From Isoetes taiwanensis (taxonomy: Eukaryota > Streptophyta > Lycopodiopsida > Isoetales > Isoetaceae): a stretch of 64,000 bases of DNA. The stretch lies in contig JAJEKV010000006.1 of assembly GCA_021234155.1 (NCBI GenBank), forward strand, positions 25,380,337 to 25,444,336. Reading direction: 5' to 3'. Numbering within the stretch: the first letter of the stretch is position 1; every line of letters begins with the position of its first letter. The notes under the pieces were generated by a model. That model worked only from the letters and a program-made list of their open reading frames with translations, searched no databases and was not told the origin of the DNA. Position numbers and translations under genes: made by a program. Of the stretch, positions 17,390 through 60,180 are shown piece after piece.

Positions 17390-17850
17390 AGGGGAAAAAA
17401 CGCAGGTTTTGGGTTGGGAAGGCCTTTCGACTTCAAGTCGAGAAAGGCGTTTCAAAGCGAAAAATGCAAGTTTTAGAGTTGAAGGCCTTTCCATTTCGCG
17501 AAGTCGAGAAAGGCGGCTCAAAGCTTAAAAACGCAGGTTTTATGGGTGAAGGCCTTTCGACTCGCGAAATGAAAAGGCGTACTCAAAAGCGAAAAACGCA
17601 GGTTTTAGAAGGTTCGATTTCGCTGAAATGAAAAGCACTCAAAAACAGAACGCAGGTTTTATGGGTCAGGCCTTTCTCGACTCAGCGAGTCGAAAGGCCT
17701 CTGAACCCTAAAACCTACGCTTACGGCTTTGAGTCGCTTTCTCGACTACATTTGCCGAAAGGCAGCAAACAAAAAAAAATGTCTGTTTTGAGGGCCTTTC
17801 TCGACTCGCAAGTCGAAAAAGGCAACTCAGAGTAAAAAAAGGGCAATTTC
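17390..17850. repeat. Tandem array of ~65-bp hairpin-containing units
   Basis: Units start with (A)nCGCAGGTTTT at 17401, about 17465, 17532, 17597 and 17651, with spacings of 64, 67, 65 and 54. Each unit carries an inverted repeat of the form GCCTTTCTCGACT, loop, AGTCGAGAAAGGC, then a CTCAAAGC spacer. Near 17700 a unit appears in the opposite orientation (AAAACCTACG), and a last degenerate hairpin lies at 17790-17823. The array is CpG-rich compared with its surroundings. Confidence 0.85.
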
Positions 17851-18405
17851 AAAGCTCAGAGTCCAAGAAGGTCGAAAATGAATAACCTTCAAACATCCTA
17901 TGTATTTTCTATGAAAAAATACCCTCCCCATAAATTTCCTACGTATTTTCCATAAAAAATAGACCCTCCCCATGTATTATCTAATGGACACATATCCAAT
18001 GGACCCTCCCCCTTTCTAATGGACCATACCATATAGCTTGGTGGAGAGGGGGCCATTGGGCTCATATTTAGCTATGTAAAGAGTAATGCCTAATGCACAT
18101 GTAAATAGCAACATATGCACCTATAATAAACATTATAACCTACTATGCATTAAATCTATTAATAAGCATTAGACCTATATATTAATATGTACTTGTCCCT
18201 ATTTTGTGTCTTGAACCTTCAAAATGGGTTACACAAGGTGTAAATTATATCATGATCTTCGCAAAGTTAAATTTTTACCTTAGAATAAGAATATATGCCT
18301 AGAAAACGTGCACCATGGCAATATAATGTTTAACGTGTGAACATAGTAGCACACACATGAAAAGAGGAAATTGGGACACGTCAAAATATAATCCTATATT
18401 ATTAG

Positions 18406-18577
18406 TATTTATTTTACACTTTCTTTTTCAACGTATTGTTTTACCCTTTTTTTCTAATACCACGCCTTTTTTTCCCGCCCATGCTTGAATTTTAAAATCA
18501 TTTATTTTACACTTTCTTTTACCCCTTTTTTTCTAATACCCCGCCTTTTTTTCCCGCCCATAGTTGAATTTTAAACT
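18406..18577. repeat. Two-copy tandem repeat, period about 79 bp
   Basis: The segment TTTATTTTACACTTTCTTTT, a T-run, CTAATACC(A/C)CGCC, a T-run, CCCGCCCAT and TTGAATTTTAAA occurs twice in a row, differing mainly by length in the pyrimidine tracts. Confidence 0.85.
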
Positions 18578-18949
18578 TTGGTACATACCTTTGAGACAGA
18601 AGTTCTTTTTGTACCACTTGGAAGAAGCTCCCCAACGCCATAGCTCCCACCGGCATGCCTTGATCCTCAAAACCTGGAACCAAGGAACACGCCAACGAGA
18701 TTTAAGCTCCTGATCAAATGGGCGTGGGAAGGCAATCGAGCATTCCTTTCTTAATTCCACCGATTCTGCTCGCTTTCAAGAACATACCTTACCGCGTGTC
18801 TAGCTATGGCGGCCTCGGACGAAAAATGTTGATGTCACTAATCGGAGCTGCATTTTGAGCGAAGTTCATGGGGATCCGATGTTCATGGGGATCCGTTCGA
18901 TCCGGCGCATTTCTTCCACGACAAGGACAAAGGTCGGGGTAAAGGGGAT

Positions 18950-19075
18950 ACGAAAGCATGGCTATGGCGAGGGGCTGGGCTATGGAGGAGGAAAGGGATA
19001 CCTGAGGAGGCGGTGGCTATGGAGGAGGTCCCGGCTATGGAGGATCAAGCTGAGGAGGCTATGGAGGACGCTTTT
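18950..19075 (+). pseudogene. Glycine-rich protein fragment (GYGG repeats)
   Basis: Allowing small frame changes, the plus strand reads HGYGEGLGYGGGKGY and then GGYGGGPGYGGSS, a stop, and GGYGG. This is typical of the glycine-rich tail of plant RNA-binding or cell-wall glycine-rich proteins. There are stops in frame and no RRM domain nearby. Low-complexity sequence limits the identification. Confidence 0.45.
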
Positions 19076-19640
19076 GCACTATCTTTGCAGGCAATGGACA
19101 AGTAAAGGTAATAAAATCTCTATTGGCTAATCTGCGCATAAGAACGATTTCGGTTTACCAAAGCCATTTCAAATCTTCCCGAATTACGAAGCTATTGTGA
19201 TAGAAGCCGGTTCGCAACACCAAAATAAGAAGCTATTGTGGTAGAAGCCCGCGCGTAGACACCAAAATAAGAGCAAAGGACGAGCACGCCAAGAAATAGG
19301 GGGATTGCTTTGAGTCGGATTTGATCTTCATGCGCTGAGAATCAAGAAATATCGTTATCGGTGGATTTGGCTTCTGTTTCAATTTTATCGTCTGCTGATT
19401 CCACAAGTCGCTGTATTCTTCTCACCTAATTCAGACACAAAAAGGAGCGGAATGGGTCGGAATCATCACAGGAACGCCTGTGCCCAGCCCAGCTCTTTGA
19501 TTTTGGGCCTATGCCCCAGCTCTGCCATGCCGCCCACGACTCCATGCTGGACACGACTCCATGCTGAACAGAGCCTTTGAACAGAGACTCCATGCCGCCC
19601 AAGACTCCATGCCCTTGATTATGACTGCTTTCTTGAGAAT

Positions 19641-19748
19641 CCGGCCGCTCCCTTATCTCTTATCTGCTAAATCTTCAAAGCTCACGAATACGAGGAGCAG
19701 CACTGCTTCGGCCGCTCCCTTATCTCTTATCTGCCAGAAATTCAAAGG
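19641..19748. repeat. Direct repeat, period about 71 bp
   Basis: CGGCCGCTCCCTTATCTCTT and the following ATCTGC occur at 19641 and 19712, each followed by a (T/G)AAATNTTCAAAG-like word that recurs a third time near 19768. GACTCCATGC is also repeated four times just upstream (19539-19613). Confidence 0.75.
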
Positions 19749-19867
19749 TGCTCCGGTTGCTTTCTGCTAAAATTTCAAAGGTTAAAAAATAGATAGGTTC
19801 TAGACCAGTTTGAGGCCAGTAGTTGTAGTTGTTGCTGTAGTGTTCGTCCTTCTATGGGGAACTAGGC

Positions 19868-19891
19868 ATTCTCGACTCAGTAGTCGAGAAT
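19868..19891. repeat. Perfect hairpin, 10-bp arms
   Basis: ATTCTCGACT, loop CAGT, AGTCGAGAAT. The stem core is the same as in the array at 17.39-17.85 kb. Confidence 0.9.
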
Positions 19892-20080
19892 GGAGGCAGT
19901 TGTGGTGTTTGTATATGGAGCGATGCCCTTTCACTTTGCTACAAGATGTGGAAATGTGGAAGCAATGAGTATGTTATGTGATTTACCACTGATCCACTCA
20001 TTTCCAGTTCCCCCCGGTTTATAAGCATCAACTGTACGCTCCATCAAAATGGTGTTTTCCATCAAAATGGTGTTTTCCAA

Positions 20081-20102
20081 TTCTCGACTCACTAGTCGAG
20101 AA
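20081..20102. repeat. Perfect hairpin, 9-bp arms
   Basis: TTCTCGACT, loop CACT, AGTCGAGAA. Same core as 19868-19891. Immediately upstream the 18-base word CCATCAAAATGGTGTTTT is tandemly duplicated (20041-20078). Confidence 0.9.
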
Positions 20103-20224
20103 GAGGAGAATGATTTATATTTTTTTTATTAGTTATTTATTTAATTAAATTAATTAAATTATTGTATAATTAATTAAATTAATTATTACTTATATTTTGA
20201 TAATATGTATTTTTAATCTCAATA

Positions 20225-47621: not shown

Positions 47622-48948
47622 CTTATTGGTAAAGGGGGCTTCGAGCATAGGATGAGGTTTCTTGGCGCCTGCGCCACCGTTAGCGGCTAGGGCGGTCGTG
47701 GGAGAGGGACCGCCCTTCTCTTCCACAATCCGGCACTGCCGCTGCTCCATTGGTTGAAGATTCTTCTGCATAAGGCTAGCAGGGCATGACAGAATTCTTA
47801 GTTTCGAGAAATCAGGGATTCAAGATCTGTTTTGGATGCACATTCTTTCTTCTTTCTGGCGGCACAATCTGGGTCTTGGTCTGTTGTAACAGGTAACCAC
47901 AAACGTGGTTCTTCTCTTTGATGCTTGCACAAACGTGATTCTTCTCTTTGATGCCTGCATTATGTCCATTTTCCTTTCTTGGTTATGGTCACGCTGGAAA
48001 AGTTTGTCTGAATAGGGACACTGGCCTATAAGGCGAAGAGGAGAAGATGTTTCTCAGTCAAGTCCAGGTTATGGAAAGATGCATCAGAATATGTAATTCT
48101 TGCAGTGAAAATAGTCTGATAGATATTTCTTGAAAAGAATTTTAGTTATGCCGTTTTCCCTTCACTCTTCCTTGCTAGCAAGAAGATCCAGGTTCTGTTA
48201 TAGAAGATAAGAAAGATTCAATTTGCTTTGGGAAATTGTGCAGTTAATCAGAATTATTGGCTTATATTGAAGAGAGAAGGATAACAGGATATATAGCAGT
48301 AGCCAGATTGAGCACAGAAGCACTCAGGTTGCTTTTTAAGCACTGCAAAGCTTGATAAGCCACACAAATTCTGAAGTTTGAGTGAAACTTTGGTGCTGAT
48401 GCTGAAGTACCTTGGTTTTCCATATGGAATTAGCATGACATGCCAGATACTGCCAAGTCTGAGTTTGTGCACTCAAATTTTGAAATTTGGGTGAAACTTT
48501 GGTACTGATGCCAAAGTACCTTGGCTTTCCATATGGAATTAGCATGCTATGCCAGATACTACCAAGTCTGTGCATGTGCTTCCTCAGGTACTAATATGCA
48601 TGTTTGTGTTATATTTGGCTCGCTTTTATAATCTCAGTCACACATCTTAGATTATTTCAAGCAATTCGGTTATTTGTGTTTTTCAGAACAAGAGGAGTTA
48701 TTTCGAGAGCCATTGGCTCTTCTTGATCATCTTGCAGCTTCTGGTTCAGATGTGGAGAGACATTTCTGTGCCTTAATGTAGATCTGCTATTAGAGCTTCT
48801 AATAAGCTTCTGCAGTTAAGGGAATGAAGATGTTGAGCCTACTCCTGTAGTAGTTCTCTTGCTGTAATGAGGCATTGTATTTCTATTCTATATAATATAA
48901 AAAAAAAAACACCTCCGTTCCTTCAAAAAAAAAAAAAAAAAAAAAAAA
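47622..48948 (+). mobile_element. 1.33-kb poly(A) retro-insertion inside the Harbinger gene
   Basis: The segment ends at the right in a run of 24 A (48925-48948) preceded by ATAATATA and another A run, so it was reverse-transcribed in the plus orientation. It is flanked by the 11-bp duplication TCTTCAATAGT (47611-47621 and 48949-48959). Removing it together with one repeat rejoins the Harbinger frame. No RT domain is readable, so it is a truncated LINE or a retrocopied transcript. A TTTTTCAG boundary at about 48687 followed by an open stretch hints at a cellular origin, but this is speculative. Confidence 0.85.
48366..48585. repeat. Two-copy tandem repeat, period 109 bp, within the insertion
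   Basis: The blocks share GTGAAACTTTGGT(G/A)CTGATG, AAGTACCTTGG, TTTCCATATGGAATTAGCAT and GCCAGATACT. The copies differ by about ten substitutions. Confidence 0.9.
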
Positions 48949-48959
48949 TCTTCAATAGT
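48949..48959. repeat. Target-site duplication, right copy
   Basis: TCTTCAATAGT directly after the poly(A) run. Confidence 0.9.
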
Positions 48960-49691
48960 ATACGAAAACGAGTTTTTAGTATACCAAATGCACTCTCCGT
49001 GGACATGGCTAGACTGAATGAAATTCCAATGTTTTTGTATTGGGGTAAATTCTGGGCCTACATTCAAATATGGTGTCAACAGCCAATTCCTAGCATTGTA
49101 ACCTGCATCATCTAATATGCAGTAATTGCCCATTTGACCAGTGGTAAATTTGGTGTAAGCAGATGTTCTTTGAAATAGAGCCCAATCGTGCATACTTCCT
49201 GCCCAACCAACATCGTAATCCCATATCATACACCTGGAATCAACAATGATTTGTAGAAGAATGGAGTGAAAGCCTTTCCTATTGTAATAATCAGGAGCAT
49301 GCTCTATAGGAGCTGATATGGGAATGTGACTGCCATCCACTGCCGAATCACATTGGGAATTCCATGCTTGGCCTCAAACCCAGTTGCATATTTCTTACAC
49401 GTACTCGTGGATGGCCAAATAAGACCACAATGCAGTTCTTCCCTCTTTATTTTAACTGCCTGAGAAAATTCTATAACATATCTATAAGCTGTAGTGCCAT
49501 ATAATTCTGCTACCACAGGAAGTGTTGAACCACTTGCAAGACGAGTCAATGCAATAGCCACTATTTACTTCCAAAGTCAATCCTAGGTGTATGTTCTTCC
49601 TCACTAGCACTGGATGTAACACACTGCACAACCATTCAAAAGTTGCCCGTGACACCCTCATCTTAAGCACAATTTCATTAATTATAGACAA
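48960..49691 (-). pseudogene. PIF/Harbinger transposase, main part
   Basis: The frame opens with VLKMRVSRATFEWLCSVL (49665-49600), shifts frame, and continues VAIALTRLASGS and VAELYG (49560-49490), then WPSTSTCKKYATGFEAKHGI. Next come DGSHIPISAP, PDYYNRKGFHSILLQ and VGWAGSMHD (49340-49170), CILDDAGYNARNWLLTPY (about 49120-49070) and, in another frame, ESAFGILKTRFRI (about 48995-48955). This gives the D-D-E triad of the DDE_4 family: DGSH, DDAGY and the E of ESAFG. Frame breaks plus the retro-insertion make it a pseudogene. The Myb-like partner protein of Harbinger elements was not found. Confidence 0.88.
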
Positions 49692-49749
49692 TACTTGAAT
49701 TTATGGACCATTTTTTAGTACACTTGCATGAATGACTCTTTTTCATACA

Positions 49750-52100
49750 CTAATTGACATCCCCTGCGAGTGCTGCATATGCCTCAGCAGCATGCACGGG
49801 TATCTTAATAGTATTAGATATCTTCTTCTTGTTTGATGGCTCCCAGGCGTAGTCGATAGTCTCTAGTTCTATGCGGTCACTTGCAGTCGTTGGCCTCCAT
49901 CTCTTCTTCCAGCAATTAGCATAATTAGCTGCGTAGACTTGATTCCTCACCGGGATTGGCTCCCACCAAGTCACCAGAATAGTCTCAAAGTTCTCCTTCT
50001 TATCATCCATTTGTGGCTCCTCAGTAGCTAGGCCCACCTAAGTTGGGCAAAGCACATCATCAGGTCGTGCCATAACAAACATACCTTTCTTCAAATCTTT
50101 GTATAGATTGAATTCCAGTATAGGTTTGTCCTTCCACGGACCGACATAAGGAGGCGTGATAGTAGCAATGGGCTCCACCACTACAGCTACATCAGGTGGA
50201 GCTCACGCTTGCCTAGTACGTGGCCAGAAGTCATAATAAGTGCCTTCGTCACTGCTGATGTTCCCCAGTTCTTGCAAGAGTTTCATCCAATATTCAATCG
50301 TGGATGTGAACTGTGCCGAGTACTTGGCTGTTTCTGGAGCACCCTTGTTACTGGTTGAACAAGCAACCCAATGCAATATATGCTTGTGGATACTGTTTTG
50401 CAGCAGGCCAAAGTCCTTCACCGATTTCTTGGGAGGAAGTAGCTTAGGATATCCAACTGGCATCATGGGCTTCCCGTCGTCTTTTTCTTTCCACATCTTT
50501 ATTCCACCAGCAGGCAACCAATCCACGTAAGTGGGTCGAGTTTTGTAATATATGACTGGCCAATCACCATTCATAGCTTAATCGAAAGTTAGAGGGGTGG
50601 TGTGACTTTTGTCAATCTATCATCCCCATCTGGTATGTAGCCTTCTATAAAACCCTTCCAATCCGTAACTTTGTCAACAACATAGGGCACATGTGTATTC
50701 AAGTTGCATTTGTGGAATTCATACAGTAGTTTTGGCATTGTGAGCACCTCAGCCTTCTTTAAAGATGTGGAGAAGTTACCAAATAAGGCATCGATATCAT
50801 CATGTGTATGACCGGGCATCATGAACCCTAGCTCAATCTCTTCAAACACACCAAGATATACTAGGTAAGAAAGATAGGAGAAGACATAACTATTCTTGTT
50901 CTGTCTAGATGCGTTGTCCAGCTGCAAATAAAGTATCTTGGGCAGAGGCTTCAATGATGGTCCCTCTGCCTGTGGCAAATTAGCAGGTATGCTGCTATTG
51001 GATAGTGACAACTTTGACTCCAAGGCCGTGGTGTCTCGCAAGGAGGACACCCATTTTGGAGCAGATGTTTCGGGCACTGACAAGTGGCCTCCTACATACT
51101 CGTGCCCCATCTCTAATCTCTTCAAGATGCTATTCAAAGAACCTACATGGAAGTTAGAGTCATCTGGCCATAAGTCCAGGGCAAAGTTTCCATAGCTTCC
51201 ATTTCCATGACCATGAGTCAGTGCACCAGTCAATGACGTTTTGAGCTTGTCAAGTCTCCAGAGAGACTTCACAGATTGTTGCAATTTCGGAATCATTGTT
51301 TTTGCTTGGTCCATTTTGTCGTGAATAATACAAAGATATTGGTCGGGATACCTGTGGGAGTATAATCTCCACGACCAGTACTGTGTGCGACATGCTTGCT
51401 CTAGTCTATGCGCTCTTCTTTCATCATGCAGCATCCTCCTCTCTTCTTCATCCTTGGTCTTCAGTAACTTTGTACGGATCACCTCGCACGTATCGCATTT
51501 GGAGAATGCAATTTTCTTTGCGATATCTTGATATCCCTAAGCTCCTCCTCCACGTTCTATGAAAACACATGCGGTGATACCTTCTTGCCGGTCCAATGCC
51601 ACAACCTTTTGCATTAACCTCTTCTAGAATCTTTGGACTTCGTAAACATTGCGGGCAACTTCGGCGACGTTCTCTCTTATCCCTCCTCGTTTCTCCCTCG
51701 CGGTGGGGCAAAGATTCACACCGATTTTCCTCACAAACATGGAAAACACGGCCCACACATGCCAATGTCGAGGAACGAGGCTTCAAGGTGCCCCGGATTA
51801 CCATGTTCGGCCTTGCGTGCACCCTCAAGGAATTGGGCCTTCCATTTTAGATATGTCGACTTTGAGATCCCGAGACCAAGGTACCACGTCCTCTCACAAA
51901 CGAGATTCCCTTGCAGCACTAGTCGTCCCACTCTTTGACCTTTCATGTTGTTACCGAACATGTCATAAACAAAAGTAACCCTATCACTATATTTCATGGC
52001 AAGGAATTCCTTTCACATGTTAACAACTTGATTCGTAGAGAACTTGACGCAACACCTATTCTTGCGAAGACAAGGTCCTCCCCAGAATCGAGGATAGCAT
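49750..52100 (-). pseudogene. DUF7869-type transposase-like gene, nearly intact
   Basis: The N-terminal part is frame-broken: KNRCCVKFSTNQVVNM, then DRVTFVYDMFGN and VCERTWYLGLGISKSTYLKW (52060-51770). A CDTC zinc-binding pair with IRTKLLKTKDEEER follows (51500-51440). Then a clean 297-codon frame, 51482-50589, contains CIIHDKMDQAKTMIP, LYLQLDNASRQNKNSYVFSY and GFMMPGHTHDDIDALF. This is the core signature of the DUF7869 family, widespread in transposon-like genes of plants and animals. The reading continues through 50574-50203 and 50190-50050 to VHAAEAYAALAGDVN at 49750 with only isolated stops. The gene ends about 60 bp before the Harbinger start on the same strand. Function is inferred from family distribution only. 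Confidence 0.75.
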
Positions 52101-52196
52101 TCTGAGTGGTGAGACAAACAAGCTTTGGTGGCCTTACAACCTTCCCCGTGTCGGGGAATGAAAAGTGTAATGTCGTTTCTCATAATTTGGGTGCTT

Positions 52197-52983
52197 CTAA
52201 TGCTTTGAGCTGCCCTGGCTGGACACTATATCTGCTTCCTGTTGCGGTGCTGCGGTCAATATCCCCGAGGCCTTCATTCCATCAACACGGACGAGGTCAT
52301 TGTTCCATCTCACACGAGCATCCCCGGTTTGAAAAATGCAAGCAACCCCGCAACGGATGTTCACTTCAAAAGGGGGGGGAGGGGGACCTTCGCCATGAGA
52401 TACTCCCACAAACTTAAAACCCGTAAACCGGTCACAAACTGCATCATCGGAGCCAATGAATGATATGAATCCCTTTCCGGCGATAATGGAGTCGCAAGAG
52501 TGCCATATCTCACAATCCTTTTCAAGAAGGGTATATCTTGTCGTGTTGTGCCTCCTTTCCCACCTCCTCGTCATTTGTCTTTTCTTTGCCGGGACGTCAT
52601 TAGCGTATCGACTCCACGAGCATCTTCACTTCTCCAGAACGAATGAGCCCCCGGCTTCGCTATTGTGTTTGCATCGTGAGTCGCCAAGGAAGGGTATGGT
52701 GGCCTTCGATCACTTCCTCCACACCAACGCTCACTACTCCATTCGGTATTTCCTTGAAGTGGTATTGTGTCATTTGCCCCACAACTCCTTTTGCTACTAG
52801 ATGTTCATTAAGGAAGAGATACATAGCCTGCACAAGGATTTCAGTAGTGTTAAAACCGAATAAGGAAGACGAGAAAGCAATGCAAAGGACATGAGGGGAT
52901 GGCCATTCAATGGTTACACGGACAATGAAATTGGGCGGGTGCCCATTTTTACATATGAGGCCCTTAGATTCCCCTCGTTGCAA
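52197..52983 (-). CDS. Hypothetical coding stretch upstream of the DUF7869 gene
   Basis: Two consecutive minus-strand frames, 52983-52660 and 52574-52197 (about 107 and 125 codons), are separated by a break. The composition looks protein-like, but I recognise no family. The first frame overlaps the leftmost copies of the GC palindrome, which would encode a HPPNF segment. Either could be chance. Confidence 0.25.
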
Positions 52984-53004
52984 ATTGGGCGGACGCCCAA
53001 TTTG
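52927..53004. repeat. GC palindromes, two copies
   Basis: AAATTGGGCGGGTGCCCATTT at 52927-52949, and an almost perfect copy at 52981-53004 with core ATTGGGCGGACGCCCAAT. First members of the palindrome family that extends to 59.7 kb. Confidence 0.9.
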
Positions 53005-53540
53005 AACCGAATGAGGCGCTTGTATAGGGTAAAAGCATGGATGTGGGGGACACTTTTTGTGTCAGCGACACATGGTGCTTAGTGGGTGCTTTCTGGGGCT
53101 ATTTTCTTTGTATTTTTGAAAAATATTTTTCTTTTATTTTTTTGATATTTTTCCCTAAAACGCATTCATATTACACCTTGGAATACAAAATTTCAGCTTC
53201 ATTGGAGTTATAGAAAAAAAAGATAAAAATAAGTAAAGTTTTCAACATTAGATGCTTAGGGGGTGCTTGGCTGGCGCAAAAATGCCCCCCAACTCCATGC
53301 TTTGACCCTATAACGTTAGTATTGATGCAGTCAGTGTCACACTGGGTACAACAAAAAGTTCTCGTTCTGAACATGCCATGATCGCGACAAATTACCACCA
53401 ATTTGGCCGTGGTTGAAGAACTTTAAAGGGTAGAGACTTCGGGGTCATGTTCTATCAATTTAATTTAGCCAGCCGGAACTCCAAACAGAAATATAGGCAT
53501 TCATGCAGAAAGCACATTCGAGTGACAGAGACTAGTAGAA

Positions 53541-53770
53541 CGAGTTGGGGACCCGCCCAATTTGCCCACGTTGGGAGGTTGTTTCAACGTCTGTAAAGGG
53601 TGTTGGCTCAACTTGAGAGACAGTTTGTCCACCCGGCCAATTTCACCTTTCTGGGCTTGTCTTCATGGAAACAAACTGGGCGGCCGCCCAATTTGTCCCT
53701 CTGTGTAGATGAACCTGAACGAGGCAGACACTAAAAGAACATCTTGGGTGCCCCCCAAATTTTTGAAAGG
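53541..53770. repeat. Degenerate palindrome cluster
   Basis: Imperfect copies centre near 53552 and 53631, a near-perfect one lies at 53671-53696 (core CTGGGCGGCCGCCCAAT), and another degenerate one is near 53756. Spacings of 53-79 bp resemble the regular array at 58.56-58.90 kb. Confidence 0.75.
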
Positions 53771-54077
53771 GGGGAGGGTGGACTGCACACCTCAGTGGAA
53801 TTATCATTGAGCTACTAGGACAAAAACAATCGAGCACTGGAAGGGCCTGACTGCAAACAAGGGTGGACTTATTATGGAGGTTCTTGGGGACAAACAAACA
53901 AGCATGGAGAAAATACCATGCACACATTCCCTGCACACCAATTTCAGGAAAAGGAAGGACTGCATCGAAACTTAGAGTATATGTAAATGTGACAGTAGCT
54001 GTCAAAGTCCAAACTTCATAACTGTGACCGAATTACCACCCCAGTTCTTCTTGGTTACCAGGCAAAATTTTGTAAAG

Positions 54078-54160
54078 GCGTGAATGAAGAGGAGTGAATC
54101 AACTGAATGAAGAGGTGTGAATGAACAGGTGTGAATGAAAAGGCGTGAATGAAGAGGACA
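54078..54160. repeat. Minisatellite GTGAATGAAGAGG
   Basis: The word GTGAATGAA is repeated about five times with small changes. Confidence 0.8.
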
Positions 54161-55040
54161 CACACATCCTTTCAAATTAGTTTCATGGCAATTACACATC
54201 GAGCTATGGCGAGTACAAACTGTGGAGGAGCACAAACCTTTGGAGATTTAGTCGCCATGAGTATGAAGCGCTGAAGATGTTTGCATCTTGAAGAAAAGAG
54301 AGTAGCCAAACAGAGTAGTGCCAGAAAATCAAAAGGTTTGATGCGCATTTACATTTAAACCCAAATTCCTCCCAAAATTTGAATGTAATTTCCCCCCTAT
54401 TTTCGAAGTTAAATGTCCCCCCTAATTTCGAAGTAATATGTCCCGCCCCCAATTTTTAAACATATATTCCTGCCTAAAATGCGTGCGACACGTGCATGAT
54501 TAAAATTAAAATTGGGCGGGCTTTAAATGACAGATTTGAAATTCAAAATCTCCGTGCATTTAATAACGAGGTCCACAATTAATTCCTCACACTCGAACCC
54601 TTCAACGGTCCATTTTTATTTGAAAAGGTCCATTTCTTACATGCACGACACTTGTCATGCGTGCATGAACGGTCCATACCCCTTTAGAAGCCCTTCATTC
54701 TCCTCGACTGCAGTTTTAGAAAATTCTGTGCTGCCTTGGCGCTTTCTGCTCCGCTTAACACTGTCGCCTTCATATTTTTTATCCACCAAACTCATTCTCG
54801 TTCCTATCCTATCAGCGCCCTATACTCCCGAATCAGCTGTCGGCTTCGGATCGAGCACTTGGCGCCTGGTATTTCTCAGCCGCTTGTCGCCTTCCTCTTG
54901 GCGCCTTCCTCTGTTGATTGTCCTATCGCCTTGGAACCCCTGTACACCAAGGAATCTTACCAGTTGATGGCATCTCGCCGGAGATCAAGGATGGCACCAC
55001 ATTCCTGAAAGGAAGCAATGATTATACTTGAAGACGTACC

Positions 55041-56740
55041 ATGAAAGTCAGAGCCCTAGAGCTGAAGAAGATTGGAACAATGGAGCGGGCGCTTGTCAGA
55101 TACCTGACGGAAGTGAAAAAATTACCATTTCAAGACATGGCTGCCTTGAGGCTAGCTCATCCCATATTCACGGAGAATTTAATGCTTATGTTCGCCAGCA
55201 GTATCAGTGGATGGGCAGAAGGACGCAAAGAGATGGAGAAGGAAAGCTTTCCGGAGTCCCTCTACGGCAAAGTAGATGAATATCTTCTTGGACCAGTTGA
55301 GGAGGGGGGAAAACCGTTCAAGTGTTTCCACGTGAGTCCATTAGCTTTGTGCTATGACGTGGTGAACACTTCTGCCCGCTTCGTTGGTTGCGACTTCAGA
55401 TATACAAAGAAATGGGCAATGGAAGACTATCAAAAATTCCTTGACCAGCTTAGCACGATGACGGACCAGCAGCTTTACTGGATAGCTATATTTATTACGC
55501 CGGACCGCCTCAATGAGTGCCTATCCGCCATGAAGACAATAGACAGTGGCAGCCGTGTTTGGGTTGGTTCCTACCAGGACCCTCCGGCCAGAAGTGCTTC
55601 TACCTCTAGAGTCCGAGAGTTGCAATGTCTTGTCCTGCTAATGTATGTTGCCAGAGACGCAGCGGCTCCGCCATCTGTACAAGAATTAAATATTTCCTTT
55701 GCCAATTCCGACCATCCCAAGCAATATGCTAAATTTTCCAAGCATTTGCGAGAAAAACAGGACATCGAAAAGAATTTGCCTAATCATGAGTGTGCCGCAG
55801 GTATGCATTTGAAATTGGGCGCCCGCCGAATTTCGTTGTTGACTATGAATGTTTCTAACATTTGTTTTCCCTGCAGCTTATTGGCTATATCGTCCTTGGT
55901 GCGACAAGGGTGCAGCAGGTGGGGGAGGAGTACTCGTCCAGAATCAGTTGGAAAGTAGGACGTGCACCTATCTAATACAGAAGTTGATGTTGGAAGGTTG
56001 CACTGTTCTCGACTTCTTTTTCCGGTGGTGCTTTTAGCCGAGCTGCAGTGTGCGAGGGCTATAAAACATGGTCTTTTGAGACAGACGAGAAGCTGGAAAT
56101 TAAGCTTGTACAGATATTCGAGCAACTTGATGTCATGTTAGACGAGAAAAAATCAAGAGCTCGGGCACTTCAAAAGATCAAAGAGAGAAAGAAGAAGGCC
56201 TCTACTTCCAAAAATGTTCCTCAGCCTCAGCTTCCTGTTCCTGAGACACCTTGTCCGTTCTCCTCTACAACCATAAACGAAGTGCAATCCCTTCTAAGAC
56301 AGGACAAGAGCTCGATTAAGCAAGAGCTCAAAAAGGCAGCGGCCCTTGGCTCTCAGGATTTGCAACTTTTTAGGAGAAGAAAAGATACCATTAACGCACT
56401 GGCAGGGACCGCGCTGGTGAATACTCAGGATATGATTGAGGAGACCTCAAAGTTCGAAAAACAGGTTGCTAGGGATCCTGAGTCTGTCGTCATGGAAACT
56501 CAGGAAGGGAACAATCAGGATGGAGAGGAAGTGGTCTCCAACATATTGGACAATCAAGATGGAGAGGAAGAGGTCCCGAACACAGAAGACAATCAGGTTG
56601 CAGATGAGGAGAATGAGGAACTGGGGTCTGAAGATTTTATGCAGAGAATGGAAAAGATCAAGGAGGCAGCACAACAACCTCCGCCCCAGTATGAAGAACC
56701 CAACGAGGAGCATTCAGAAGAGGTGCCTCCAGACGCATGA
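55041..56740 (+). CDS. Two-exon gene with a DNA-methylase-like SAM motif and an acidic coiled-coil tail
   Basis: Exon 1 runs from ATG 55041 (or upstream) to about 55800, with 250 open codons. A 76-bp intron (GTATGC...CCCTGCAG, 55801-55876) follows. Exon 2 reads YWLYRPWCDKGAAGGGG, then TYLIQKLMLEGCTVLDFFSG if one T of the T-run at about 56021-56025 is ignored, then GAFSRAAVCEGYKTWSFETD. The order L...L...G-VLDxFSGG...A...G...E-x-D resembles motifs X, I and II of N4/N6 DNA methylases. I see no clear catalytic (D/N)PP(Y/W). From about 56105 to the stop at 56740 the protein is a Lys/Glu-rich coiled coil with repeats of NQDGEE and a Pro/Glu-rich end. The T-run frameshift means a pseudogene, an unseen intron or a sequence error. 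Function is tentative. Confidence 0.5.
55801..55876 (+). other. Intron containing a palindrome copy
   Basis: Donor AG|GTATGCATTTG, acceptor TTTTCCCTGCAG|C. The palindrome AATTGGGCGCCCGCCGAATT starts about 11 bases after the donor (55811-55834). Confidence 0.7.
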
Positions 56741-56860
56741 GGGACTTTTGATTTCAACATATGGGAATTATTTTTTGAACATTTGTAATTATTTCTTTTT
56801 GAGAAATGATATTTTTTCCTTCAGTTCCTTGTCTTAAAGTTCTCTAGTTTACTTTGCTAC

Positions 56861-56998
56861 CCAAATTGGGCGGACGCCCAATTTGGTTACCGTAGAAACT
56901 AAAACCTTTAATTAAATTTATTTGACGCCCAATCTAGTTGCTGTTAACTTGAGACCTTAGCTATCCTCGGCCGGAAATTGGGCGGGCGCCCAATTTGC
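56861..56998. repeat. GC palindromes, two copies and one half site
   Basis: Full copies lie at 56861-56886 and 56973-56998 (core ATTGGGCGGGCGCCCAAT), with a half site GACGCCCAAT at 56924-56933. They fill the interval between two convergent genes (ends at 56740 and 57173). Confidence 0.92.
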
Positions 56999-57067
56999 TA
57001 GCGTGAGGTGAAGTGGAAGTGCAGAAAAAGGGGAGGTCGAGGAGCACAACGTTACAAACTACTCAGG

Positions 57068-57172
57068 TTCGATGCATCCTTATATCATTATATCGTTATA
57101 TCCTTATATCATTACATCCTTATATCATTATATGATTATATCATTATATCATTACATCCTTATATCACAGAT
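57068..57172. repeat. ATATCATT minisatellite
   Basis: About twelve tandem variants of (C/T)TTATATCATTA occur just before the 3' end of the next minus-strand gene. Confidence 0.9.
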
Positions 57173-57415
57173 TCACTCATCATCAACACCTGCTGCGGTG
57201 ATGGCATTCAGCTCATAGATCTCCTGATCATGTAGCCAGATAAGGTGGATCACAACACGTGTTTGCCCGAGGCAACGAATCTCAGGACCATCCGCTTTGG
57301 ATTGCAGATAGGGATCAAGTTTGACACCGTTCATCATGTATTCACAAAGATCCCGGTAGATCATGGAGCACTTGATGGTTCGCATGTGCTCTGGACGAGG
57401 AGGCAAGGATGCCAT
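57173..57415 (-). CDS. Small unknown protein, paralog A (80 aa)
   Basis: An intact frame from ATG 57415. I know no family for it. It aligns along its whole length with paralogs B (57730-57978) and C (58182-58448). The shared features are an N-terminal PEH...C-x-M, a central (L/M)(D/E)(P/D)(Y/W)(L/M), and a C-terminal (V/T)(V/I)IH(L/I)(I/V)W followed by a hydrophobic-acid pattern and IT. Here the signature is VVIHLIWLHDQEIYELNAIT. There is no signal peptide or membrane segment. A TATA box lies 40 nt upstream and CATCAATAAT upstream of that. The gene is convergent with the 55.0-56.7 kb gene. Confidence 0.7.
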   Translation of the reverse strand: MASLPPRPEHMRTIKCSMIYRDLCEYMMNGVKLDPYLQSKADGPEIRCLGQTRVVIHLIWLHDQEIYELNAITAAGVDDE

Positions 57416-57446
57416 GGGAGATGAATGACCTCTACCGAATGGAGCT

Positions 57447-57486
57447 CCTTTTATAGTGAGGTAAAATTATTGATGTGAATTATTGG
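57447..57486 (-). promoter_or_regulatory. Promoter of paralog A
   Basis: On the minus strand: CCAATAAT (57486-57479), CATCAATAAT (57475-57466), 10 bases, CTATAAAAGG (57456-57447), with the ATG 32 nt after the last base. The same three elements in the same order precede paralogs B and C. Confidence 0.7.
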
Positions 57487-57553
57487 TGTAGATTGTAGCG
57501 TGTACAAGTATCATGTACGTGTATGTCATGTACACGCCATCATGCATTCCAAC

Positions 57554-57579
57554 GCAAATTGGGCGGGCGCCCAATTTCA
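57554..57579. repeat. GC palindrome copy
   Basis: CAAATTGGGCGGGCGCCCAA followed by TTTCA. It lies between the promoter of paralog A and the 3' end of paralog B. Confidence 0.92.
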
Positions 57580-57729
57580 GCGCCAGGAATGGATATTAAT
57601 ATTGTTTCACAGGAGTCATATACAAGACAAGTCTAATAGTTTATCTCAGAGAACTGTGTATTACATAAAGAAGTGTGATTGCATTGGATACTAACACAAT
57701 CTGATTACAACAAGATGACAAGTATTGAT

Positions 57730-57978
57730 TTAGGGGGACTCTTCTGAGTCATCGTCACCAGCCACCCCAGTGATCTTTTCTATCATGAACATTTGATGCT
57801 CTCTATTCCATATCAGATGGATGATGACATCGAAGGGATCAGCATAATGGTGAGGATTGAGTGTGACAGTGGTCATCCAGTCTTCCATGGGTATATCTCG
57901 CTCGCGGCACTGCTTGAAGTTTTCGTGATTCATCTTGCAGGTAATAGAATCACGTTCAGGACCAGAATGAGACCACAT
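57730..57978 (-). CDS. Small unknown protein, paralog B (82 aa)
   Basis: ATG at 57978 is chosen because a longer in-frame start would be a TTG and because it lies 50 nt downstream of the TATA box, like the other paralogs. It shares GPERDSITCKM, an acidic central helix (PMEDWM) and DVIIHLIWNREHQMFMIEKI with paralogs A and C. It ends in an acidic GDDDSEESP tail. Divergent from paralog C across a 203-bp shared promoter region. Function unknown. Confidence 0.7.
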   Translation of the reverse strand: MWSHSGPERDSITCKMNHENFKQCRERDIPMEDWMTTVTLNPHHYADPFDVIIHLIWNREHQMFMIEKITGVAGDDDSEESP

Positions 57979-58181
57979 GGCTAGACGGAAGGCAAATTTG
58001 ATGGACAAAATTGGTTTCGTATATATTTATATCCACCAAAATTATTGATGGTATTGTACACAAAAATTATTGGATATACATACCACTCATATATACACCC
58101 AATAATATTGCTACAGTGGTCATCAATAATTCCATGGCTATAAGTATAGCCGCATTCCAGTGCATAGTACATTGCTTTGCT
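57979..58181. promoter_or_regulatory. Bidirectional promoter between paralogs B and C
   Basis: For B (minus): CCAATAAT 58073-58066, CATCAATAAT 58050-58041, 8 bases, then ATATAAATAT 58032-58023. For C (plus): CCAATAAT 58099-58106, CATCAATAAT 58121-58130, 8 bases, then TATAAGTA 58139-58146. The C TATA lies inside a perfect inverted repeat GGCTATAAGTATAGCC (58136-58151). Both TATA boxes are 40-50 nt from their ATG. Confidence 0.7.
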
Positions 58182-58448
58182 ATGTCTCGCCATCCTGCTA
58201 GAAATCTTCAGAGGTCGCAGTTGCCTCCTCCTCCAGAGCATCTTGACACCCTCACTTGCCTTATGACTTTCGACGATCTTCATGCATGCATCTTCAAAGA
58301 GATCACCCTTGATCCCTGGCTGCATGGTATAGCTACTGGTCGACTGAAAGACTCCCCCGGCGAGTACCATGTTACTATCCATATTGTTTGGGTTCCGGAG
58401 CGCGACGCTTATGAGATTGATAAAATCACCAATAATTATAATCTATGA
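58182..58448 (+). CDS. Small unknown protein, paralog C (88 aa)
   Basis: ATG at 58182 gives a start comparable in length and TATA distance to paralogs A and B; the frame is open further upstream but without support. It reads PPEHLDTLTCLMTFDDL in the N-terminal part, ITLDPWLHGI in the centre and YHVTIHIVWVPERDAYEIDK, then IT, at the end. Full-length similarity to A and B is clear but identity is low, which suggests old duplicates kept under selection. Followed at 58557 by the palindrome array. Confidence 0.7.
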   Translation: MSRHPARNLQRSQLPPPPEHLDTLTCLMTFDDLHACIFKEITLDPWLHGIATGRLKDSPGEYHVTIHIVWVPERDAYEIDKITNNYNL

Positions 58449-58556
58449 GTCATGTATTTCATAAGCTTTTATGATATAACTGTGTTGTGCATCATTCAGT
58501 TGTTATCTTCGTATCTGATCTAGTTTTTCTCATTTTCCATTTGCTTGCAACTCCAA

Positions 58557-58901
58557 GGAAATTGGGCGCCCGCCCAATTTCCTCAGGAGGTCTCGATGGA
58601 ATTTCGAACAGAGCATTCCCAAGGCAAAGTGGGCGGCCGCCCAATTGAGCTGGGAAGCCTCCAAGGACCTTTGTTCAGACAATTCCAAGAGCAAAGTGGG
58701 CGGGCGCCCAATTACTTCTAGAGGACTCGAGGTAACTTTCATCAGACCATCTCCAGGACAAAGTGGGCGGGCGCCCAATTTCGCCTGGTGGCCTCGAGAA
58801 AGCTTTGATTCAGACTTTTCCCATAGCAAAGTGGGCGGGCGCCCAAGTCGAAACTATCTTCAAGGCATTTCAGGGGCAAAGTGGGCGGGCGCCCAATTTG
58901 T
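58557..58901. repeat. Tandem array of ~68-bp units, each with a GC palindrome
   Basis: Palindromes start at 58557, 58625, 58691, 58759, 58827 and 58876 (spacings 68, 66, 68, 68 and 49). The last five begin CAAAGTGGGCGG, the first AAATTGGGCG. The spacers also resemble each other (AGG(C/T)CTCGA, CTTTNATTCAGAC, TTCCCA(A/T)(A/G)G). The array lies between the convergent genes C (plus) and 59097-59600 (minus). Confidence 0.92.
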
Positions 58902-59096
58902 ACACAGGATATTACTTTTCTGAAATTGCACGTTATGGGCTTTTATCAATGTAGACAAGAACCATTCTATTCATATAGGAATGGAGTACATGGATGGAGT
59001 ACATAGATAATAAAATCAAGTAAACATCATGCCTCGAAAGAGATAGTTCAACAGAAACATAATAGATAATAATAGATAATATTATACATGGAGGTT

Positions 59097-59600
59097 TCAT
59101 TCATTGCCCAGTTCCACCGCAATTAGATCCCCTAGATCGAACTCTGTAATGCCTTGTCGGCTATACAAATCCAGCCAGTCATCCAATTCTCGCATCGAAT
59201 GGGGAGTGCTGAGGATGAGCTTTGTTACCAAAGCCACACCCTCCCTTTTTTCCTTCTTGTAAAGCTTCTTAAATAACGACCGGAAGCTGTTGTGCAGCCA
59301 AACATCCTCCATTTTCAGCAGCCTCTTCAGAGCTTCTGCCCTGTAAATATGGCGTTTCAATGAAATCAGGCAGCCTTCCAGCTCCACCCTGCTGAGGTGA
59401 TCCGGCTCATTGCCATCCTTCATCAACCCTCCCCCACGGAGGAGCTTCATGAGTTGGTGTCTCATTTCTTCTGTTCCATTCTGGTTTATCTCGTTCTGCA
59501 CCTCAACCTGAAGTTGATTCGCATGAGCTAATATTGGCTCGCAGATATGGGACTGCATTTCGCTCATTGTGAATCCATCGCTGCGCCTGGTTCGGACCAT
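59097..59600 (-). CDS. Unknown 167-aa protein
   Basis: An intact frame from ATG 59600 to a stop at 59097. The protein is predicted largely alpha-helical: EPILAHANQLQVEVQNEINQ, a Gly patch (LLRGGGLM), a basic helix (FKKLYKKEKREG) and an acidic C-terminus (DLGDLIAVELGNE). There is no signal peptide, membrane segment or motif I can name. It is intact despite neighbouring decay and sits within the palindrome-bearing block. No TATA or CATCAATAAT box was found in its first 150 upstream bases, so it differs from the three small paralogs. Confidence 0.6.
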   Translation of the reverse strand: MVRTRRSDGFTMSEMQSHICEPILAHANQLQVEVQNEINQNGTEEMRHQLMKLLRGGGLMKDGNEPDHLSRVELEGCLISLKRHIYRAEALKRLLKMEDVWLHNSFRSLFKKLYKKEKREGVALVTKLILSTPHSMRELDDWLDLYSRQGITEFDLGDLIAVELGNE

Positions 59601-59865
59601 TCTGACTGTCCCGACTATGAATGTACACTATGCAGATTTGTGAATGCCGGCTACTGTGGCGAGACCACCTCTAGTGAAGGCACTTGGGCGGGACACAAAG
59701 TTGGATGGCACTTCTTTGGCTTAATAGATACAAGGCCTGCCATCTCACCTACCTGCACGATTCCCGAAATTTTGCATCATTCTGACAAATAAAACCCCTA
59801 TATTCTAAAAATTTGGGTCCATTTGGGAGTCATATGGACTTAGGGAAAGTCCATATATAATGAAA

Positions 59866-60180
59866 TTATGCTTTCTTCTGACGGAGCATTCTATCCCTGT
59901 GACTATGTGACAAGATATTTTCGTAGTATCCTTCTATGCGCTTGTACACCCAACAACTCCTTTGCTGCCTTGTCATGAAATTCATCTTCTGTACCAACTC
60001 GAGCACTTGCACACATGCATACATGTATCTCTTGGATGGTGGTGCCTCGTTGGGCCTTAACATCTCCAACATAATGAAAGACTGCAATATTTGGCATATT
60101 TGTAGAAGACTGTGTCGAGTGCTTGGATCCATTAGGAAAGAAAATCCTGAAGACAAATTAGAACACAAGACATGAGAATG
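59866..60180 (-). CDS. Hypothetical protein stretch
   Basis: A minus-strand frame reads ICQILQSFIMLEMLRPNEAP, then YMYACVQVLELVQKMNFMTR, and ends basic at 59866. It could be a small helical protein or the 3' exon of a gene. The part upstream of about 60180 is hydrophobic and may be chance. I recognise no family. Confidence 0.3.
   Translation of the reverse strand, partial: HSHVLCSNLSSGFSFLMDPSTRHSLLQICQILQSFIMLEMLRPNEAPPSKRYMYACVQVLELVQKMNFMTRQQRSCWVYKRIEGYYENILSHSHRDRMLRQKKA

Follow-up and report, generated by a model that had tools for sequence, protein, structure and literature searches.

The 64-kb stretch of Isoetes taiwanensis DNA analyzed here (contig JAJEKV010000006.1, positions 25,380,337 to 25,444,336; hereafter the window) carries a family of short palindromes confined to one block, and this block is, with near certainty, the inner part of a 10.2-kb, high-copy DNA transposon with terminal inverted repeats (TIRs) in a plant-type nuclear genome. 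This assignment follows from ends that match those of other copies, from the inverted repeats at these ends, and from 4-bp target-site duplications (TSDs). The copy holding the whole block spans positions 49665 to 59873 (10,209 bp). Its left TIR (49665 to 49684, forward strand, AAGCACAATTTCATTA...) has 3 mismatches in 20 positions to the reverse complement of 59854 to 59873, the right TIR (reverse strand, AAGCATAATTTCATTA... read inwards), and the ends have the form of the inverted repeats AAGCAYAATTTCATTA. The comparison of the flanks revealed the duplication TCTT at 49661 to 49664 and again at 59874 to 59877; the second copy with two ends, C138, carries ATAT on both sides, so that the TSD is of 4 bp in both. 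C138 is collinear with the window from 59873 to 49664/49665, where the match ends, and its parts are 89 to 96% identical. The right end at 59873/59874 is common to three other copies, C1045 and C1106 among them, and the exact right terminus was found at 63 places in the host genome (control, 0).

A scan of the whole window with the pattern CAAATTGGGCG-NN-CGCCCAATTTG, taking as strong a score of at least 18 of 22, identified 14 strong palindromes of the form AAATTGGGCG-NN-CGCCCAATTT, all within the block at 52927 to 58900 and none elsewhere, in agreement with the initial annotation, which had described a real family absent from the rest of the window. Scores in 100 Markov-1 simulated windows never went above 17, below that of the weakest strong palindrome. 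All have a core TGGGCG-NN-CGCCCA with A/T-rich arms, and the two centre bases vary (GG, CC, GA, GC), as had also been noted. They start at 52927 and 52981 (52927 to 53004), at 53541 and 53672 (53541 to 53763, a segment that also holds weak palindromes at 53621 and 53740, with scores of 15 and 16), at 55811, at 56862 and 56974 (56862 to 56997), at 57555 (57555 to 57578), and at 58558, 58625, 58692, 58759, 58827, and 58877, these last forming a tandem array of six (58558 to 58900) that repeats about every 67 bp, the last step being 50. Those called degenerate earlier at about 54510, 56924, and 59687, placed by our scan at 54508, 56913, and 59680, score just 14, a value also reached at five places outside the block. 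The statement that nearly all copies lie between genes was borne out by 13 of the 14 strong ones; the remaining one (55811) lies 11 nt into an apparent intron of the gene that we call E, and coding sequence holds none. Some of the palindromes have flank sequence in common. The window also contains a second, unrelated palindrome family at 17396 to 20110, made of TCGACT-N3..5-AGTCGA hairpins in a 66-bp tandem array and in isolated copies.

The genome-wide search suggested with the initial annotation found exact cores (ATTGGGCG-NN-CGCCCAAT) at 2,971 places in the 1.66-Gb host genome (reversed control, 0), and cores with a one-base spacer at 54 places. The family is thus not a marker of this block alone, as it had been taken to be; the palindromes are a conserved noncoding component of the transposon family. 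Rfam had no family matching the palindrome at gathering score, and no account of it was seen among the papers listed by the literature searches. In bacterial sequences, the palindrome matched at 5 loci, each with a single site, which we took as chance.

The left part of the element is occupied by a broken gene (49750 to 52625, reverse strand; extent set by eye from the frame of copy L084) whose open reading frame (ORF) at 50589 to 51434 matches the DUF7869 profile (E value, 1.7e-40). In L084, DUF7869 lies in a stop-to-stop frame of 1004 amino acids (aa). The ORF has at least 141 matches in the host genome (138 of 12,559 candidates scored), and no relative of the protein was found by sequence in PDB. 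We regard it as the probable transposase, with a presumed DDE/D catalytic role. Gene E follows on the forward strand, with a first exon of 253 aa (55041 to 55800). This exon matched the host genome at least 157 times, with 150 of 1,955 candidates scored, and has one homologue in the protein database, P0001, 56% identical. Its apparent intron (55801 to 55876; GT...AG as read from the sequence) carries palindrome 55811. The second exon (55877 to 56740) is broken here and open over 287 aa in copies L032, L034, L036, and L043; a resemblance of this exon to methyltransferases, suggested by the motif VLDFFSGG, found no support in Pfam or PDB and was dropped. Three small paralogues come next, gene A (80 aa; 57173 to 57415, reverse strand), gene B (82 aa; 57730 to 57978, reverse strand), and gene C (58182 to 58448, forward strand; ORF open from 58134, start at 58182 presumed), which are 20 to 36% identical over their aligned parts. 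Gene C has at least 150 matches in the host genome (150 of 4,028 candidates scored). The promoters of A, B, and C have a common block, CATCAATAATT, followed by TATA (57465, 58040, and 58122), and the sequence ATCAATAATT occurs three times in the window, always within these blocks. The last gene, D (167 aa; 59097 to 59600, reverse strand), had no homologue in the protein database at an E value of 0.01. Profile scans recognized no family other than DUF7869 among the element proteins. Among the matches listed, a match to C or DUF7869 was seen by eye within about 14 kb of 19 of the 30 best copies of E.

The window copy is damaged, since the frames of the DUF7869 gene and of E exon 2 are broken and other copies have longer open frames. 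It also carries a 282-bp insert with inverted ends (53027 to 53308), resembling a miniature inverted-repeat transposable element, which is close to palindrome 52981 and absent from C138. In turn, C138 has about 2.7 kb of extra sequence at window position 54980, in which more palindromes occur. A subterminal hairpin, ATGGACTT-AGGGA-AAGTCCAT (59834 to 59854), is located some 19 nt from the right end; it is also found in C138 and C1045 and, with one base changed, in C1106. Some 290 bp beyond the left end, at 48888 to 49373, there is a fragment of a Harbinger-type DDE transposase (DDE_Tnp_4; E value, 8e-18), and an exon of a UDP-glycosyltransferase was recognized among the window ORFs, which, like the size of the genome, points to a land plant.

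The palindromes are better conserved than their surroundings. Among units 1 to 4 of the tandem array, between-unit identity was 123/144 in the palindromes and 142/258 in the spacers, and 18 of 24 palindrome columns were invariant versus 11 of 43 spacer columns (P = 1.2e-4). The other palindrome array, at 17.4 kb, showed no such contrast (58/76 in palindromes versus 83/114 in spacers, for 3 of 4 units). Past the stops of A, B, and C, the palindrome is identical at 22 of 22 positions; of the 110 ungapped columns that separate it from the stop, only 24 are invariant. Arms and flanks were compared in three copies, and constraint became apparent only at deeper divergence: 3.9% of arm and 9.5% of flank positions were changed in C1045 (P = 0.02), and 7.5% (3/40) versus 42.6% (29/68) in the divergent C1106 (P = 7e-5). 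The core CpGs were kept in 26 of 28 cases in the 14 window palindromes, even though CpG is depleted around them (observed/expected with palindromes masked, 0.61 in the block and 0.34 around the array). Among the 30 closest copies of gene E, the window copy counted, 27 had the intron site with a score of at least 16 of 20. Outside this genome, homologue P0001 has, right after the same exon end, a tail NWAAAQF that back-translates from the protein sequence to the palindrome, with a chance probability of about 1e-5. The palindrome centres and the intron site vary between element subfamilies.

What is conserved is the sequence of the palindrome and not its pairing, because one-sided changes in the arms far outnumber two-sided ones. 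The 14 window palindromes showed 22 one-sided changes (including 3 G-T wobbles), 2 two-sided paired changes, both in the outermost pair, and 1 two-sided unpaired change. In 251 distinct sites from the window and loci L009 to L083 (score of at least 15 of 20, with 26 scoring exactly 15 and some of these perhaps due to chance), 375 changes were one-sided and 10 two-sided, versus 20.1 two-sided changes expected under independence, the score cutoff being somewhat biased against two-sided changes. Only 4 of the 10 were Watson-Crick, 3 of these at the CpG pair. Pair 6 alone accounted for 68 one-sided and no two-sided changes, and its compensated variant was found at no place in the host genome. Compensation between arms, raised initially as a point to check, is therefore not seen, and the arms vary independently. 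Among the three sources then proposed for the symmetry, a dyad-binding protein and copying from a single source fit these data, and pairing does not. A mimivirus-type hairpin signal is therefore unlikely.

The palindrome is probably the site of a sequence-specific protein. Because it consists of two 10-bp half-sites set 2 bp apart and is insensitive to the centre, we infer a dimeric DNA-binding protein, for which each palindrome would be a symmetric, double-stranded site. This reader would probably be encoded by the element itself, E, A to C, and D being the candidates, and would coat the element in its introns, intergenic gaps, and tandem arrays. The coated, CpG-bearing regions might then stay free of silencing marks, as happens with VANC on the VANDAL elements, and the transposase could be expressed. 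Such an anti-silencing role, VANC-like in its working, is put forward tentatively, as the most likely of the roles considered but short of a probable one.

Several observations weigh against this reading. No DNA-binding or VANC-type domain was recognized in E, A, B, C, or D by Pfam and NCBIfam profiles above cutoff. In 20 divergent copies of gene E (50 to 69% identical, hand-picked from the 157 listed), the intron palindrome was kept in 8 (centre GT or CC), degraded in 2, and lost in 10. The copies L058 to L066 and L068 form a subfamily without the intron palindrome, and since 9 of these 10 are stop-free in exon 1, gene E manages without it. In L084, a palindrome lies, as judged by eye, at the start of the 1004-aa frame before the first Met. 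The motif of VANC21, YAGTATTAY, is of 9 nt and nonpalindromic (PMC5735166). Lastly, in the close copy C138, the arms are 3.2% and the flanks 2.4% changed, i.e., there is no difference between them. This absence of special constraint also suits the view that the palindromes have no function and are a short repeat that tandem duplication and gene conversion spread within the element and that reached thousands of copies by transposition. The shared flanks of some palindromes, the second dispersed family at 17.4 to 20.1 kb, and the gene E subfamily that lost its intron site point in the same direction. This account is nonetheless improbable, given that the core is retained while the adjacent spacer and flank decay, that its CpGs persist in depleted surroundings, and that the intron site is retained deeply, in P0001 too.

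A role at transcript ends, as the initial annotation suggested, would have the RNA fold at the palindrome and transcripts end there, as in the hairpin rule of some giant viruses. In all five genes E, A, B, C, and D, a palindrome lies 110 to 197 nt past the stop, and in a post hoc test, where the distance for gene D was 208.5 nt, random placement matched this five-gene pattern in 0.0013 of the trials within 210 nt, 0.0071 within 250 nt, and 0.022 within 300 nt. The same 22-mer follows the stops of A, B, and C in sense orientation; this orientation and the 3' position fit a role at transcript ends as well, which weighs against the protein-site reading. The six RNA folds tested were stable (z from -1.4 to -5.1), and flank pairing at the nine isolated palindromes was marginally above that of swapped flanks (P = 0.015 to 0.054). 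The palindromes of Noumeavirus are likewise located downstream of stop codons (PMC5413956). Yet much of the 3' placement can be explained by the exclusion of palindromes from coding sequence in a compact element, and the arms show no compensatory changes, with the same one-sided stem mismatch retained in five of the six array copies. Moreover, six copies stand in one array, one copy lies in an intron, and neither an RNase III nor a poly(A) polymerase family was found among the ORFs scanned. The likeness to the rule of Mimiviridae and Marseilleviridae thus stops at the placement after stop codons: here the sequence is kept and the pairing is not, there are intron copies, and no viral relatives were found, whereas the hairpins of mimivirus are not conserved in sequence (PMC4402537). 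Hairpins for 3'-end formation are, all in all, very improbable. The idea that the block is a fragment of a giant virus was rejected, as the IMG/VR scans, made for E, C, D, and the DUF7869 ORF with a few short peptide patterns each and reaching close relatives only, found no relative of any of these four. The palindrome patterns gave 0, 0, and 3 matches in this check of viral origin, the 3 being single and unrelated.

The palindromes could instead be dyad sites that bind the transposase, or else a factor of replication or transcription, and act as enhancers or origin-like arrays in the manner of the homologous regions (hrs) of baculoviruses. The sequence-specific conservation agrees with this, and the layout, with 67-bp tandem units of one palindrome each and single intergenic copies, resembles that of hrs, which also have a central palindrome, lie between genes, and consist of tandem units of about 70 bp. 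The strong sites, though, extend from 3263 nt from the left end to 974 nt from the right end, an internal position unlike the subterminal one of transposase sites, and TIR elements are not known to have a replicon stage. The setting differs as well, being a plant TIR transposon whose proteins lacked IMG/VR relatives in the scans above rather than a viral genome of the baculovirus type. The hrs of AcMNPV contain 30-bp imperfect palindromes bound by IE-1 (PMC6669502); here the palindrome is GC-centred and nearly perfect, and no relative of IE-1 was recognized. We consider dyad sites of this kind unlikely, a somewhat better prospect than a repeat devoid of function.

If the palindromes do serve as anti-silencing sites for a protein of the element, this would be a second, unrelated case of a self-recognizing anti-silencing system, with a near-perfect palindromic target. 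The roughly 3,000 sites that occur naturally in a single genome, together with the subfamilies in which sites are altered or lost, would then allow tests of the origin of the target, of its spread across introns and the gaps between genes, and of its coevolution with the reader, and a function would be attached to DUF7869 proteins. It is more doubtful, on present indications, that the element represents a separate group of plant DNA transposons (DUF7869 transposase, AAGCA...TGCTT ends, 4-bp TSD) in which anti-silencing evolved independently of VANDALs and targets a 22-bp, CpG-bearing palindrome in thousands of copies.

Transposon-encoded systems known to recognize their own noncoding DNA to escape silencing by the host are few. 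Fungal transposons carrying a TET/JBP dioxygenase have reportedly been described (PMC12730594). En/Spm and Ac carry subterminal transposase-binding repeats and resemble the present element in having short repeated sites for an element protein; they differ in position, since the strong sites here lie in the interior and keep a distance of 3.3 kb to the left end and of 1 kb to the right one. VANDALs are Mutator-like elements with a 9-bp TSD. The closest parallel is VANC21 of the Arabidopsis VANDAL21 elements, which, according to PMC5735166 and PMC10398659, binds a short motif in introns and in intergenic and terminal noncoding regions, often in tandem repeats, its binding being accompanied by local CG hypomethylation. 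In both cases, a short motif is repeated many times across the noncoding parts of one transposon family, often in tandem arrays, and the two differ in the length and symmetry of the motif, in the VANC-like protein, recognized in none of our profile scans, and in the 4-bp TSD found here. We propose that the element would work like a VANC system without being a member of it, because no VANC-type protein was recognized and the TSD differs from that of VANDALs. Repeated sites that are specific to an element and serve one of its proteins are of a known kind; a palindromic form of them, in a TIR family that seems unrelated, looks new.

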